From: Paramecium tetraurelia
Lineage: Eukaryota; Ciliophora; Oligohymenophorea; Peniculida; Parameciidae
Direction: 5' to 3'
Assembly: GCF_000165425.1 (NCBI RefSeq)
Contig: NW_001799177.1
Coordinates: 434,001-498,000 of the forward strand
Length of the DNA: 64,000 bases
Shown here piece by piece: positions 6,201 through 30,953 of the stretch; within the stretch, counting starts at the first letter, position 1; the number at the start of each line of letters is the position of its first letter. The notes under the pieces are model-generated. The model was not told where the DNA came from, did not search any database, and was given only the letters and a program-made list of their open reading frames with translations. A program made the position numbers and the translations under genes.

Positions 6201-7111
6201 ACAAGAATGCTCTTAACCAAAAGGAAGAAGAACAAAAGAACTTATAAAATTAAATTAGTAATCAGAAAAAGTAAGATGATCAAATTAAGAAATTATAGTA
6301 ACAGTTGGAAAAAGAAACAAAAACTAAAAAAGAAGAAATCGAAAAATTACAAAATGAAATAAATGAATTGAATTAAGAGTTATAGTAAGCCTAATAATTG
6401 AATTACAATTAAAAAAAATTAGAGGATTAAGTGAAGAAGCTTTAATAATAATTAGATTAATAAACTGAGAAAAGTAAAAAACAATTATAAGATTCTGAAA
6501 AGAAATAATAAAATTTACAAAATCAATTAAAGGAGACAGCTGAATAGTTATCAGAATGGGAAGAAAATGATCTTACAAAGGAAGAATAAATATAAAAACT
6601 TGTTCGATAAGTAGAAGAATATAAGAAGAAGGAGGAGATGTTTTAAAAACAAGGGAAAACTGTAAAGGAGCTCTAAGAATAATTAAAATAAGCAGAAAAA
6701 GTTAATATAGAATTATAGAAGGAAAAAAAAAATTCATAGGCTGAAAAAAATGGTTAAAAAGAAAATTTAGAATAAGAAATAAAAGAATTGAAAGAATAAA
6801 TAACCAAATTATAAAAATTGAATAATGAACTTGTTATTTATGAAAATATCATTTAAGTAGATGTTCGCAAAATGTAAGAATTGTAGAGAAAGATAGAATG
6901 CTTAGAAAATAATTAGTCATAATAAGGTTCAAAATAAAATATTGAGACAAAGAGCTAAGGCGTGACTCCAAGAAAATAAATTAGGGGAAGTTCAGTCATG
7001 AAATAAAATTAAGATTAGATTTCACAGATGACCCTTGAATAATTATAGTAGCATGTTAAAAAATTAGAATAAATAATAAAAGAAGCAGGATTAGGTCATA
7101 AAATAAACTGA
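3288..7111 (+). CDS. Very long coiled-coil protein (1255 aa)
   Basis: ATG 3288-3290, TGA 7109-7111. Introns: 3393-3423 (31 nt) and 3712-3736 (25 nt). After a short Tyr/Pro/Ser-rich head (MYRQYDYPYSPS), nearly the whole protein is heptad-like Leu/Ile plus Glu, Lys, Gln and Asn, typical of a rod-shaped structural protein. The Gln content is extreme because TAA and TAG are the commonest codons in the gene. There is no motor, EF-hand or membrane segment visible. Ciliates use such proteins in cortical, basal-body and ciliary-rootlet structures; that role here is inference. A short non-coil break with Ser/Thr/Pro lies around 4195-4330. Confidence 0.9.
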
Positions 7112-23004: not shown

Positions 23005-23262
23005 TCAATTTTGTATTTTATTCAAATTTGATTATATTATAACCAAATTAATAGTAAATTCATAATAATAATTTGAGTTGATAATTAATTAAGACAAATT
23101 CCTTTCTGAAATATCATATGGTTCATAAATAAGCGCAAAATCAAAAGAAGCTAATAATTTAACTTGCAAATTTTATGATATAATAAATAATGGAAAATTA
23201 ATCCCTGAACTAACATTTATTATATCTTGATTTAAAATAAATCTAATAGAATAATCAATCAT
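23005..23262 (-). CDS. Short ORF abutting the PARP stop codon (85 aa)
   Basis: ATG 23262-23260 overlaps the TGA of the PARP gene (23261-23259) as ATGA. TGA is at 23007-23005. The sequence looks coding: LLASFDFALIYEPYDISER followed by NSNYYYEFTINLVII. It starts inside the last codons of a well-formed PARP domain, so it is not a continuation of that protein. It could be a small gene, or the tail of a gene whose front was lost. No family recognised. Confidence 0.4.
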
Positions 23263-26200
23263 TAGTAAATTTGCACCAAATATCTCATCTTTACTCTGCT
23301 TTCATCATAGACAATATATTCTGAATTTTGAGTGTAAAAACTTATATTCTTAGTCCTCTCTTATATTTAATGAGGGATTGAATTAGAAACAATTTACCCG
23401 ATGGGAACTACACATCCATTAGGCATTTTTATTTAAGACATTGGATCAGGGCCTTTGGAGCCAACAGCTTTCAAAGTATATTCAGGTTCTAATAAATATA
23501 AATGAATTCGTACTTTAATATTCAAGACAATTTTTATGGGGCTCATTGTATGCATCAATTTAATTCATGCAACTTACTTCACATAATAATAAATATCGAT
23601 ATTTTTGGTACTGATTAGTATTATTTTGGTTCCCATAAAACTAATTATATCTATGATTGATTGAATAATCTTAAGTATAATTATAGCTCTTTGAAAATTG
23701 ATCTGCAAAATAGATACCTTTTCCAAACATCGCTCCTGTATTTACTGCCCAGGAAGGTGCAACTATAATAATTTAAATATTAATTACTTTTTAATCCTAA
23801 GGCTAGTAAACTCATGAAATTGGAAATCTTTGAACCATGCCATAAAAGAATTCTAGGTCCTTGATTAAATTTGTCAAATTTCTACGCCTCTCCTTTTCTT
23901 TCGATAGCAAAGATATTTGCAATTGTAACACTTTAAGTTCTTTAGATGTATGTTTATATCATCTTATATTCTAGATCCGACGTATTCAAAGTAAGCATTT
24001 TAATATTCAATGCATTAAAACAATAAGTTATAGGATGAATAGAATTTAAATTATAATTTGCTCCAAGTAATATCTTAATAGCTTGTTCAACGTTTAGTAG
24101 TAATTCTAAAAGTTGTAATTGTTCATTGATTATTTCTTAAGTTTCCAATAATGGTAAGAGATTTTATCTCATTTAAACTTTTGGAATTAATTCATAATAT
24201 CTAGCAGACTTGTCATTGATTTCTGAATAATATTATTACAATCTCTTTAGATCGACATCTATTTAATTCATATAGAGATTGACTTCTAAAACTATTTCTT
24301 TAAGTTCTAATAATATTTCCTTAGCTTTTAGTATTGTATTTTTGTCTAACTTTTCAATTGGTACAAATCCTGTATCAAATTGATGGCTTTGTAATTCTTA
24401 TTAATATAATTTAACCTAGGAGAATTGCTCAATAACTTTGTAAATGCTAGTATCTAACTTACATTTAGGATATGGCGATTACTCGCTTAAATCAAAAGGT
24501 TCTAAGAGAGATTTGTAGCTCTTGTTATTTTAACACTTAATAAGCTGATACTTTTCTGGCTTTTTATCGAATTCTTCTTCTCCTGATTTTATCAATTTCC
24601 AATTATTGCCACCTGTTTTGGCAGCAAATATTTTACAGAATTCCTTAATTGTGGTTTCCAAATTTTCAAAGGGAGTCATTTAAAATTGACCCTGTTCCCC
24701 GATTTGACCCCATTTTGTGAACAAAATATAATTATTTCTATTTTTATCAAATAAGATTTGCATCTTATAGAATACATTTTTATGAAAGTTTCTATTCACA
24801 ATATCAACCTTAGAGAGCAAACATTACCATAGGCCATAATCTTGATCATCATAAACACTCAAATCGCCCTTAGCAATTTTGGCCTATTAATCCACAATTT
24901 ACTTATTATCAATTTCAGCTTCTATTTAAATATTCTTTTTTTCTAAGAACTATAGAGCATCTTCTTCAAAATCTACTTCATGATCTGGCCATAGTGCTGT
25001 GGCTATTACAGAAGTAGCCATTCTTTGTTATCTCAAGCTTCTAGTGTGATGAGCATTATTAGCTAAGAGTTCATCCTTCATGAGTTAAGCATCAAATATT
25101 AAAGCGTAATCTAGTGGAGTCAATCCATTATTATCTTTAAGGTTGTAATCAAATATTGTCATTAAAATTTTCAACATTTCAACATTTTCATAGGATCCGA
25201 AATCTAATGGCAAGACAACATGATGAATAGGAGTTTTCCCCTCATTATCACGCATTTAAAGCTAAGTATTAAATGAGGGCTGCCTAATCAAAAATTTCAC
25301 AAATTCTAAATTGTTATTTTTAATAGCAATATTCAATGCTGTTTAGCCTTGATGATTCTATTCATTAATGTCAATTCCGTAATCCACAAATTTTTAGAGT
25401 TTCCAAGAGTCATAAATCTTTAAGTGATCAACTAAATACATGAAGGGTTTAATATACGAATTTGTATTTAAAATTTTGAATTTAACATCCATCTTTAACC
25501 CTAGTTGCATCATCCTATCAAAATTATAATTTTAGTTTCTTTGGAAAAGTAAAGTGAAAGCATTATTATCTGTATTGTCCATCAGATTAGGATCACATTT
25601 TCTATTATATAGGAAATATTCAACTAATAAATCATTATTCTTTGAGATTGCATCATGCAGAGGTAATTTTTGATTGTTATCTTAAACATAAGGACTGATA
25701 TTCTTTTATTCAAATTATTCTACTATTTCTGATAACAAGTCTGCAGGAACTTTAGCTGAATAAATTGCGAATAAATGAAATAGGTTTTACCCATTAGAAT
25801 TTAATTTGGATAAATCCTTCTCATTCTTCACTTTCATTAAGAGAGTGAGAACTAATTAAAATTAATTTGCATTAATGGCATCTTGAATTGCATTTACAAA
25901 TTCATATCCATCACTAATTAATAAGTAGGCGACACCTTGCCATCCAAATTTAATTGCTTAAGAGAAATAACTATATTCTCCAGTTTACAAATTATTATGT
26001 AGATGTTATGGGAGATCCAAATCTTAACTAATCTTTTATTGTATTTTTTATAATATCAATCTCTCTCTTTAAGTTATTTTATCAGACTAGCTTCTCTCAA
26101 ATTGAGGAAGTATCTTTTATTATTATTATTATAATTTCTATTTATCTCTTTTACGAGAATAAAATACATTCTTCTCTGAACCATCATCGCAGGAGTTTCC

Positions 26201-29200
26201 CTCTGAATATTCATCATCTTCTTAATAATCATCGTCAGACTCATCATCTATTTAGACTTATAGCTACTACTATTAATTTTAAGCCGCTTATTTTACTCTT
26301 TCATTCTCATCCTCAATGATCATCAGTTGATCAATTTCAGGATCAGTCTTTATTTCTTCTCTGTACATCTTCTCTTTTTGTTATCTCAAATCACTTAGAC
26401 TGACAATGTTGATAACCTTATTCACATCAACCTTATTGTCAATCAACATTGTACTGAAATTAGCATGTTTAAAGAAAGAATAGGCTATTGGTGTATTCTT
26501 ATAAATATCAGGAGTATCAACAGCTGCTCCCATCTTTATCATGTATCTACCTGAAATTGCACTTCCTCTTAAGGCTGCATAATGCAATGGAGATCTTTAA
26601 TATCGATCCAATACATTAACATCACATTCTTTGAAGGCTAATAAAGATGAGACTGATTCAAATGGATCTATCTCATTTGTTGAAGTAGGTTCATTAAATT
26701 TAGTGAAGGAATAAAATAATGGAGTTCTACCATAGATATCTTTTATATCACATTTAGCTCCGAATTTGATCAATTATTATTCCATCTAAAAACTTGCATT
26801 TGCATTTGGATTACTGAAATTTATAGCAAAATGTAGTGATGTCCTACCTTTCTGATCTTAATAGTTTGGATCTACTTTGAATTCTGACAAGAAAACCTTT
26901 ACAGTCTGTAAGTCTGTTTTCTCTACAAATTAATTTAGAGGCACTTAATTCTAATTATTAACATCATTTAATTAACCACCTAAACTTATAAGTTTAACTA
27001 AAAGAGCATGCCATGAGTAATTATACTTTAGTGCTATCATCAAGGTTGGAGTGTTTCCATGAGAGTTTCTATCATTAAAATCTAAACCTAACTTTATCAC
27101 ATAATCTAAAAATGAAAATGATGTTTCATCGTTTCTATGTAATATTACTAGATTATGGTTAAAGCATTTAAAGAAATAATGCAAAGGAGTACCAAATTGA
27201 TCTCTTTGAGTAAGCATCTCATTTGGGAATATTTATAACAATTCCTTGACAAAGGAGATACTTGGAAATGACTCGAAAATCAAATGGAATATATTTGTGT
27301 TATTTTAAACTGCAGTTTAGTTGTAACTTCTCTATGTCATTACATTCGAATTTATATTGGCTCCTTTTTAAATGAGATGCTTTAATTGTTTAAACATTTA
27401 ATTTTAGTAGAAATAACCATCCTCAATTCTTTTCATTTCTAATTAATTTTATTTCTTAACTGAAATTCCTACTTAAACTGAAATTACATCATATTAAAAA
27501 TATGATGCATAAAGCTTGCAATCTGCATTTTATAGTCTCTTCTGAATTTCATTCTAAAATTACTGCTAAGGTGTTTAATTGTAGTTTGAGTATCCTTAAT
27601 TGTTATTATAATTGCAGTTCGAAGTTCCAAAATTGTTATTCGAAAATCCGAAATTGCTACTCTAATTTTAAAAAACTGAACTCCCTTAATTAGAAGAAAA
27701 TAAATTATTGCTATTTCCAAAACCAAAAGTAGTTTGAGGTTATGGTTATGCAAATATATTTTATTGTTATTACTATGGTTATGCAAATCTATTTGATTGT
27801 TATTACTATTATCCATATCCAAATGTTGTTTGATTTTAAGGTCGACCAAATAAATTATTTTATTGAACCATAGTATTCATTGGAATGTTTAATCCTTATT
27901 ATTAAACTTATTGAATTTAACCAACTGTTTATTAGTTCTGAAACAAACCTCCTGATACATTGACTTAATTCTTAAATAAATTTTCTATTACTTTCTCTTA
28001 TTTATTAGGCATCATTATAGATTCTTAAGTAATTTATTCAGATAATCTCTCTTCAAATGTTTTCTGTGCTTGCTAACCTTCTTATAATAATTCTTTTTAA
28101 AACTTATATTTATACTCATTTTCAATGTCTTAAAATATTTCATTCTTGGCTTTCACAATATTAGATTAAAACTCTTATTCAATTTTTGATGCAATGGATG
28201 TTACAAAAATCTAAATGACCTTTAAATGAGGTACAAATCCTTGAATATCAGGTTGGTGAAGTAGAGATGGATTTATCTTATCTAAAATTATTTAGAATAG
28301 TTAAATTCCAAGGTCGTCATAAAAGTACTGATTTTCAATCATAATGTGTAATAATGTTTTATCTTCTCTATTTACTATATTTAAATCAATCTAATTCTCT
28401 TAAAGAAGTTCAAGGCAGAGCTTATAATTCTTTTTAGACAACAATAATGAAAATGGGGTTAATCCATTTTCTTTTTCCTATGAGTTAATATTAGCTCCAT
28501 TTGCAATTAATAATTTGATTAATTTATCTTATATTTTTGATTGTTAACCATTAATAGCATGCAACAAGCTAGATCTGCCATCCTTATCTTAACTATTTAT
28601 GTCTGCACCATGGTCTATCAATAATTGAATGAGATCAATTAATAAATCTGAGAAGGTGCATGATAAGGCATGTTACAAACAAGTTTTACCGAATTTATCT
28701 TATATGTTGATATCAGCCTTTTTTTCTGCAATAATATACTTAATGAATTCAAATTACTCAACTGATTAATCAAACTACTTGATTAGCCCAGCGACTAAAG
28801 TTAAGCCATCATCATCAATACAATTTACATCTGTACTTTCTAATTTCAACAATGCTTTAACAATACCTATATGATTTTTTGCTTAAGCTACATTCAAAGG
28901 TTTCAATTTCCAAGAGTTGAATTCATTCTAATCAGCTCCAGCCTCAATCAAAGTTTAAATACAATCTAAAAAGCCATATGCTGCAGCATGATGAATGGCA
29001 TTATTTTTTGAGGAATCACTAATTTTAAAGTCTGCCCCATAATATAGCAATTTAGACAAAATGGCCAAATTTCCATTTCTAGCAGCCATAATTAATGGTG
29101 TTCTTCCAAATTTATCCTTAGCATTGATTCTTGCCCCTTCATCTAACAAATATTCAACCAATTCTAAATGATTATAGGCAGCAGCATAATGCAAAGCTGT

Positions 29201-30953
29201 CATTCTGTTTCTTCCTGCAAAATTAATCAACAATCCGTTTTCAATTAATATTTTTACACATTCAACGTGACCATTTTAACTAGCAAAATGAATTGCAGAA
29301 TTGCCCTCCTTATTTTTTGCTTTCAAATTAGTATTTACTACTAATAATTTAACGTTATGGGAACGACCATATTTAGCTGCTAGCATCAAAGGAGTATCCA
29401 AAAATTTATTACCTTCTCTTGCATCAACACCATTTGCTAGCAAATATTCTAAGCAATTTGAGGTTTAGGAGACAGCAGCATAATGAATTGGCTTACTACC
29501 ATTTTCATCTTAGATATTGTATTCCATTGTCTACTCCATAAAATACTTTAGGAACTGTTCGGATGGATTTATACATGCACAATGAATAGGAGTAATGAGA
29601 AAATCATTCTAGGTTTTCTTAGTAATGGATATCTTTTTTATTTAATCTAATTTATAAGTGCTGAAATTATCATCTAATGCATCATGATGTAAATAATTAA
29701 AGCCATAACCATCGAGGTTGTTTGTTAATGCATATTTGATCAAGAATTTAGCAGACTTTATATTACCACATCTAACTGCAAAAGCAACATTCTCAATTAA
29801 ATAGTGATCATATTTTGATGATTTTAGATAAATGAATAATTATTCATACATTTCACAATTTGTTTCAATCTCTAATAACCTTCTACATACTTAATTGCTA
29901 TCAAAATGATAATTTAGATCATAAACAAATGCATTGTTTCCTTCTCTATTTCCTCTACCAAGAGCAACCTTTCTCAATTTTACCCCATAAGCTTGTTTAT
30001 TATTATAACCTGTGTCTATTTCTTTTAACTGGCAAGGTAAATCTGCATAAAATCTATTTCTTTTCGTTGCATTTTACAGAAAATGAGTCAATAATTGTTT
30101 ATCTTATCTTCTAAATAGGATATCAAATATTGAAATATCATATTCTGGTCCCCATCTATCATAATAATTAGATATTCTTTTGGCTTCAAATAAAATTTAA
30201 TCCATCAGAGCCTTATTCCCTGTATTTGCTGCTCTTATGATTTCTTTGTTATTCATTCTTGTGCTATCGTAATCAATAAAATGATCTTCAGTTCCTTCAA
30301 ATTGAGTACTAAAACTCTTTAGATTTTTAAGATTTTCATTCATTTTTCTTTTCCTCTTTTTTCCCTTTTTCTTGTCTTTTTCTTCGGTTTTTCTAGATTA
30401 TCTTTATTTTTTTGGGACAGGCTCAGCTTCTGCAGATGAACTTTGTTCACTTGATTCTTCTTCATATTGACTAAATTGAGATTCTACTTATGTTTTTTAT
30501 TAGGCTGATTTTCTGGCTTTTTTTTTAATTGGTTTATCATTAGACTCCTCCTCATCATCATCAAATTTTTTCTATGATTATTTGACTTTCTATTTCAAAT
30601 CCTTAATTAAGCTTCTCTGACTTTATTTATATATCTCCATGTCTACTACATAAATAGTTTCATCTGAATGAATGACTGATATTCCTTCGATATCAACCCT
30701 AAAATATATGTACTATTTACCATTTTGTCTGCGAAGGAATTGTTGTGTATCCATTACATTTATATTATTATTTACTTTTCTTTTTCTTTTCAAATGGTAC
30801 CAATTCGGTTACATGAAATTCTTCTTCATTCTCATTCCAATCCTAAAGTAGTTTGTATAAGGTGAATTCTGTTTCAACTTTACACAATATAACTTAGTCT
30901 TTTTTTAAAATCTATTCTTTTTTGGCGCGATTGCTTCTTAAATTTCTATTCAT
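23259..30953 (-). CDS. Giant ankyrin - FG/Q-rich - ankyrin - WGR - PARP protein (2540 aa)
   Basis: One open frame, ATG 30953-30951 to TGA 23261-23259, with three introns: 30699-30720 (22 nt), 23763-23787 (25 nt), 23489-23513 (25 nt). Order by approximate residue: basic N-terminus with nuclear-localisation-like KKKGKKRKRK near 195; ankyrin block 1 about 440-930 (TALHYAAAYNHLELVEYLL); a helical stretch; FG/Gln-rich linker about 990-1120 (NLFG, TTFGYG, TTFGFG, SNFGFS, NNFGTS); ankyrin block 2 about 1160-1980 (SPLHYAALRG); WGR domain about 2025-2125 (KWGQIGEQGQF); PARP regulatory helices; catalytic domain about 2340-2540. The H-Y-E triad is intact: LLWHGSK, GKGIYFAD, SEYIVYD. It should make ADP-ribose polymers in the nucleus. 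The linker resembles FG nucleoporins. Confidence 0.92.

Follow-up and report, generated by a model that had tools for sequence, protein, structure and literature searches.

In a 64,000-nucleotide stretch of the Paramecium tetraurelia genome (assembly GCF_000165425.1, contig NW_001799177.1, positions 434,001 to 498,000; hereafter the window, with positions counted from its first letter), a minus-strand gene at 23259..30953 encodes a 2540-residue protein in which ankyrin repeats are joined to a WGR domain, a PARP regulatory domain (PRD) and a PARP catalytic domain. By its sequence, the gene belongs to a set of six ankyrin-type Clade 1 (Clade 1A) PARP genes in the genome. All six copies share one layout, the catalytic H-Y-E triad of the window protein is intact, and in the window gene and its sister copy the signature tripeptide of the WGR domain reads W-G-Q. 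We consider it likely that the gene encodes a Clade 1A PARP with an intact H-Y-E, weakened sensing of DNA breaks and, between its first two ankyrin blocks, a disordered spacer (linker 1) that varies from copy to copy.

Domain layout and the six ankyrin-PARP genes

Pfam matches of the window protein, all over cut-off, comprised Ank_2 (E = 8.7e-102), WGR (PF05406, E = 4.9e-20), PARP_reg (PF02877, E = 3.9e-18) and PARP (PF00644, E = 5.9e-39), which bears out the combination of ankyrin repeats, WGR and PARP that a preliminary description of this DNA had read from the letters. Scanning residues 1-2000 in six segments placed ankyrin repeats within residues 445-922, 1177-1539 and 1540-2000, that is, in three blocks and not in the two described before. 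From the N-terminus, and all on the minus strand, the protein contains a basic, nuclear-localisation-like stretch read by eye (30344..30412, residues 174-196), the Pfam-matched stretch with ankyrin block 1 (28166..29599, residues 445-922), linker 1 (27542..27979, residues 985-1130), the stretch with ankyrin block 2 (26315..27403, residues 1177-1539, from the segment scan), an acidic, Gln-rich linker 2 (26012..26311, residues 1541-1640) and ankyrin block 3 (25052..25984, residues ~1650-1960, with limits set by eye inside the scanned segment 1540-2000). These are followed by the WGR domain (24587..24829, residues 2035-2115), the Pfam-matched regulatory (helical) domain (24017..24463, residues 2157-2305) and the catalytic domain (23268..23971, residues 2321-2538), in which the triad, as previously claimed, is complete (H2365, Y2399, E2521). 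Residues 1-208, 209-444 and 923-1176 had no Pfam family above cut-off, neither a zinc finger nor a BRCT domain was among the Pfam matches of the protein, and a structure prediction of residues 205-470 made without an alignment was uninformative (mean predicted local distance difference test score, pLDDT, 34).

The combination of ankyrin, WGR and PARP is not novel; it is the published layout of Clade 1A, which, according to the available portion of PMC2964712, covers Dictyostelium, fungi and Paramecium tetraurelia and is the only Clade 1 group to combine ankyrin repeats with WGR, PRD and PARP domains. Because Clade 1A already includes the Paramecium lineage, such a fusion is expected there. The window protein has the features of the group, namely N-terminal ankyrin repeats, WGR, PARP_reg and a PARP domain with H-Y-E. 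Ankyrin-type Clade 1 PARPs ('Clade 1-ank') occur in further groups according to excerpts of PMC4245714, and PME-5 of C. elegans has been compared with Clade 1A members (PMC2964712 / PMC4245714, in part). Two features set the window protein apart from published Clade 1A members, W-G-Q and the linker rich in Phe and N/Q that separates its first two ankyrin blocks; the accessible parts of PMC2964712 and PMC4245714 make no mention of linkers in these proteins.

PF00644 gave 30 exon matches in the genome, and 14 of these places were examined as loci (L009-L022). Five of them match most of the window protein: L011 (contig C200) at 63% identity, and L009 (C44), L010 (C190), L012 (C180) and L014 (C149) at 41-42%. 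The closest pairs are the window gene with L011 (63%), L009 with L014 (76%) and L010 with L012 (82%). Across the paralogues, 45-73 of the 81 WGR residues are identical to the window protein; in linker 1, the identical residues number 5-11 of 46-66 in L009, L010, L012 and L014, and 9 of 22 in L011. The 11 WGR matches of the genome are accounted for by the six ankyrin genes and five PARP genes that match the window protein only C-terminally. An unrooted tree of the 11 WGR-to-catalytic parts, which took in paralogues of this genome only, agrees with a single ankyrin group that divides into the window gene with L011 and the other four. Models of L009, L010 and L012 have incomplete N-termini, and that of L014 has two doubtful introns near the start. 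Open reading frames (ORFs) beside the window gene found no match in the examined paralogue loci, whose flanks were short and extended mainly 5'; for the upstream neighbour a single relative was found, on contig C213, where none of the examined paralogues lies, and the downstream ORF matches only itself. Because neighbouring genes failed to date the paralogue pairs, we infer an origin of these pairs in whole-genome duplication from the pairing alone.

Although the preliminary description was right about the presence of a WGR domain, which matches Pfam over cut-off, the tripeptide that names the domain is changed. The window gene and L011 read KWGQIG, and L009, L010, L012 and L014 read WGRIG; among the five WGR PARPs without ankyrin repeats, four read WGRVG, and no such motif could be located in the model of the remaining one (L019). 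Gln2076 (positions 24704-24706) aligns with the Arg of W-G-R in PARP2 and PARP3, so that the equivalent of PARP2 R140, as present in the DNA-break-activated PARP1-3, is not kept in the window gene or L011. In PARP2, R140 is part of the WGR motif (PMC7608914, in the portion available), and the R140A mutant loses DNA binding and PARP1-independent foci (PMC9023293, likewise in part). Since the Arg equivalent to Gln2076 is needed for DNA binding in PARP2, break sensing may be weakened in the window gene, and the pair with L011 may respond less to DNA ends, as judged from one substitution. The last 518 residues (WGR, PRD and catalytic domain) have PARP1 (E = 2.7e-47) and PARP2 as their nearest solved relatives, and PARP3 matches them more weakly (2.8e-21). 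Compared with PARP1, PARP2 and PARP3, which it resembles in this half, the window protein has a large ankyrin N-terminus, Gln for the signature Arg and no Pfam match to a zinc finger or BRCT domain.

Linker 1 and Nup98-type repeats

Linker 1 is rich in Phe and in N/Q and combines six FG motifs with NIFAQ, NLFSS and SVFQN. The FG motifs quoted in the preliminary description, which had suggested a link to nuclear pores, are indeed present at residues 1028-1102 and exceed what composition predicts (six in residues 985-1130 compared with 1.2 expected on shuffling, p ~2.5e-4), and motifs of both ciliate Nup98 kinds, NIF-type and GLFG-type, are mixed (NIFAQ, NLFSS, TTFGFG). Tandem Repeats Finder (TRF) detected two arrays of about two copies with period 33, one of which covers the NRFAQP/NIFAQP stretch; tandem duplication was rejected as the sole source of linker 1, as these arrays account for only part of it.

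One reading of these features is that linker 1 is a functional nucleoporin-like module, whose FG and NIF Phe motifs would bind importins or Nup98-type repeats and hold the PARP at the pores of one of the two ciliate nuclei. Besides the FG excess, a comparison of Phe content speaks for this reading. Of 85 ORFs of at least 300 residues (from the window, L009-L022 and five Nup98 loci), 16 had a 120-residue segment with at least 30% N+Q. Ranked by Phe per 120 residues, an ORF of L018 came first (17), followed by a Nup98-type protein (14), linker 1 and another Nup98-type protein (13 each), an unrelated ORF of L015 (11) and two more Nup98-type proteins (10 and 9); linker 1 thus ties for third of the 16 and falls within the range of the NIF-type Nup98 proteins (14, 13, 10, 9). 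The five loci with the Nup98-type domain PF04096 comprise four with NIF[NQS]-type repeats (L023, L024, L025, L027), which in L023 are encoded in an adjacent frame ahead of the PF04096 domain, and one with LFG/GLG repeats (L026). This parallels the split described for Tetrahymena Nup98, in which GLFG repeats are macronuclear and NIFN repeats micronuclear (PMC5450191, in part). Linker 1 shares with both types of ciliate Nup98 a Phe-rich, N/Q-rich low complexity with NIFAQ, NLFSS and FG motifs, and L012 has a separate FG run at the same place.

In contrast to ciliate Nup98, the window protein has no PF04096 match, has few repeats (only six FG) and is not conserved in this region between sister copies. 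Between anchor residues 935 and 1160, the window protein has 225 residues, compared with 149 in L009, 134 in L010, 63 in L011, 151 in L012 and 128 in L014, and the FG counts of linker 1 are six in the window protein, none in L009, one in L010, none in L011, six in L012 and none in L014. L011, although the closest copy, has almost no linker 1, which argues against conserved Phe motifs, and linker 1 is acidic in L009 and L014. The preliminary description had named a lack of FG conservation in orthologues as the observation that would count against its proposal, and among the paralogues this is largely what was found. In L012 the FGNQ run is a 12-nucleotide tandem repeat. Residues 923-1176 gave no Pfam nucleoporin match at E<=10, although the FG model PF13634 (Nucleoporin_FG) is uninformative here, as it had no match at all, whether in this genome or in the controls. 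At least six FG in 80 residues were seen only in the window protein, L012 and the unrelated L018 ORF (431 ORFs of at least 150 residues from the window and the 14 loci), and this last, which belongs to no Pfam family, equals linker 1 in FG and surpasses it in Phe. Finally, neither 'PARP' nor 'ankyrin' occurs in the main text of the Tetrahymena pore paper (PMC5450191). Taken together, linker 1 does resemble Nup98 repeats in composition, but this resemblance has not been stable over evolution; a role at the pore is possible, and a dedicated pore module is in our view unlikely.

Two further observations concern Phe motifs elsewhere. Linker 2 of L010, L012 and L014 carries more FG/F motifs (FFGN, SAFGQ, NAFGRSF, GLFSGQSLFQ). 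The L018 ORF (L018:1098-2498, plus strand), with its six FG in 80 residues, contains DFGDFG/NPFGDF motifs; its FG part matched no Pfam family, and immediately upstream of it there is a sub-threshold match to FAIM1.

A histone H3 tail in paralogue L009

The place equivalent to linker 2 of the window protein is occupied in L009 by ARTKQTARKSYGGKAP, which reproduces the N-terminal tail of histone H3 almost exactly (G000:C44:154772-154798 plus downstream residues, minus strand). Linker 2 of L009 reads LYGGARTKQTARKSYGGKAPIKRMAAVAARPYYG and lies within a 2311-residue open frame that also holds ankyrin and WGR parts. Compared with the H3 1-20 peptide printed in PMC8683085, 16/20 positions are alike. 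An exact search for ARTKQTARK across the genome returned 12 places, 11 H3 genes and the L009 PARP, whereas the reversed-pattern control returned 0. The tail is absent from the other five copies, including the pair partner L014. Its Lys-Ser pair, the acceptor site, is kept; H3S10 is a primary target of PARP1/2:HPF1 according to the available text of PMC8683085. HPF1 (PF10228) was matched nowhere, which is uninformative as to its presence.

The organism's own H3s read ARTKQTARKSTAGNKKP (STTGNKKP in L030), and L009 reads SYGGKAP after ARTKQTARK, so that in GGKAP L009 resembles the printed H3 peptide (PMC8683085) more than it does the core H3s of the same organism. Recent copying of an own H3 gene into L009 was unsupported, given STAGNKKP versus SYGGKAP and an ungapped DNA identity of 39-43 of 93. 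As regards the histones themselves, the core H3 tails of the 11 H3 genes of this genome (G000; L028-L038) read ARTKQTARKSTAGNKKPTKHLATKAARK (STTGNKKP in L030), unlike the GGKAP of the PMC8683085 peptide, and three histone-fold loci (L039, L040, L041) have divergent tails starting MARTKEGKE or MARTKQGKP and are possible H3 variants. Among literature titles on histone mimics and H3-tail peptides, ciliates included, none reported such a protein; PMC5844071 cites, in the part available, a paper titled on a histone mimic in G9a.

In the regulatory domain, which separates WGR from PARP, the reading frame of L009 changes, and the H3-bearing frame soon runs into a TGA, before the catalytic domain. A 19-nucleotide 'intron' in the L009 model was discarded as false, as this stretch reads as coding sequence conserved in L014. 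Because of the frame change and the TGA ahead of the catalytic domain, L009 may be a defective copy, or its sequence may contain an error.

The linkers of the six ankyrin-PARPs might alternatively be copy-specific address or substrate labels that diverged after duplication. The Nup98-like Phe repeat of the window gene would then direct the enzyme to pores or importins, the H3 tail of L009 would be a built-in ADP-ribosylation substrate or a bait for H3 readers and writers while DNA is cut in a programmed manner in the developing macronucleus, and partners, not DNA ends, would recruit the W-G-Q protein of the window gene. Because L009 changes frame in its regulatory domain, we give this reading low odds, slightly below those of a pore module.

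Gene structure, tankyrases and the proposed mechanism

Joining exons 30953-30721, 30698-23788, 23762-23514 and 23488-23259 under the ciliate code (table 6) yields 2540 residues and a TGA stop at 23259-23261, in agreement with the extent, length and three small introns given in the preliminary description. Intron 1 (30699..30720, 22 nucleotides, GTA..TAG) was recovered by splice-aware alignment; intron 2 (23763..23787) and intron 3 (23489..23513), of 25 nucleotides each and all on the minus strand, lie inside the catalytic domain, where a matching intron was modelled in 5/5 paralogues for the former and in 4/5 for the latter (none in the L014 model). A splice-aware self-alignment guided by the 2540-residue protein returned the same three introns, as a consistency check and not as independent evidence. 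The domain order ankyrin-linker-ankyrin-linker-ankyrin-WGR-PRD-PARP is common to the window gene and its five paralogues, whose main exons (6271-6697 nucleotides) are in all five models open across linker 1 and the place of 27870, at which the preliminary description had considered a gene boundary. Because the five paralogues share this layout and each is open across that place, the single gene proposed there is upheld.

An action like that of tankyrases, with ankyrin clusters fetching peptide-tagged substrates for poly(ADP-ribosyl)ation independently of DNA damage, would agree with the three ankyrin blocks and with the loss of the signature Arg from the DNA-binding WGR domain. Tankyrases (Clade 4) share ankyrin repeats and PARP with the window protein. 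However, no SAM domain was matched in it at E<=0.001, and WGR and PARP_reg occupy the place between the ankyrins and PARP; its catalytic half, moreover, is not tankyrase-like, as the 50 PDB matches of the C-terminal 518 residues at E<=1e-3 are to PARP1, 2, 3 and 4 and include no tankyrase. On these grounds we reject membership among the tankyrases, in line with PMC2964712, whose accessible part states that such protozoan ankyrin PARPs are not tankyrases, and regard a tankyrase-like action as improbable. That two neighbouring genes, for an ankyrin protein and an ankyrin-PARP, were read as one across a Q/N-rich linker open by chance is highly improbable and was dropped: two further minus-strand frames (147 and 162 residues) are also open over the linker, but the main frame runs for ~2304 TGA-free codons in the second exon, compared with at most 391 in 200 Markov-1 simulations of the gene's sequence, and one exon spans the same place in all five paralogue models.

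For the Clade 1A PARP with weakened break sensing that we favour, we propose the following mechanism. The enzyme would be nuclear, and its three ankyrin blocks would bind partner proteins. The regulatory domain would restrain the catalytic domain until the WGR side is engaged, upon which the enzyme would ADP-ribosylate itself and its partners. Because the signature Arg is replaced by Gln, a weak response to bare DNA breaks would be expected of the W-G-Q pair, together with a stronger reliance on partners bound by the ankyrin blocks than in the W-G-R copies. Linker 1 would be a disordered spacer differing from copy to copy, which in the window gene drift or selection may have turned into a sequence rich in F and N/Q; this sequence could interact with transport factors or form condensates with others of its kind, and explaining it requires no conserved role.

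Several points weigh against this interpretation. The effect of Gln is carried over from an Arg-to-Ala change in PARP2, and neighbouring residues could compensate for it; W-G-Q in two sister copies counts as one event. The resemblance of linker 1 to the Nup98 repeats of the same genome exceeds what a plain spacer needs. The paralogue models were guided by the window protein and not by transcripts, L009 bears the frame change described above, and enzyme activity, nuclear location and expression of the window gene are predictions.

The gene is a further member of a PARP subfamily that was known from Paramecium tetraurelia before; new here are W-G-Q in the window gene and its sister, and the H3 tail in L009. 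A putative role of the ankyrin-PARP family in programmed DNA rearrangement is reasonable, and L009, should it prove expressed and intact, would allow the idea of a PARP with a built-in histone substrate or mimic to be tested. With the catalytic triad kept in the W-G-Q pair, break-sensing and break-blind forms of this giant enzyme may exist side by side in a single organism.

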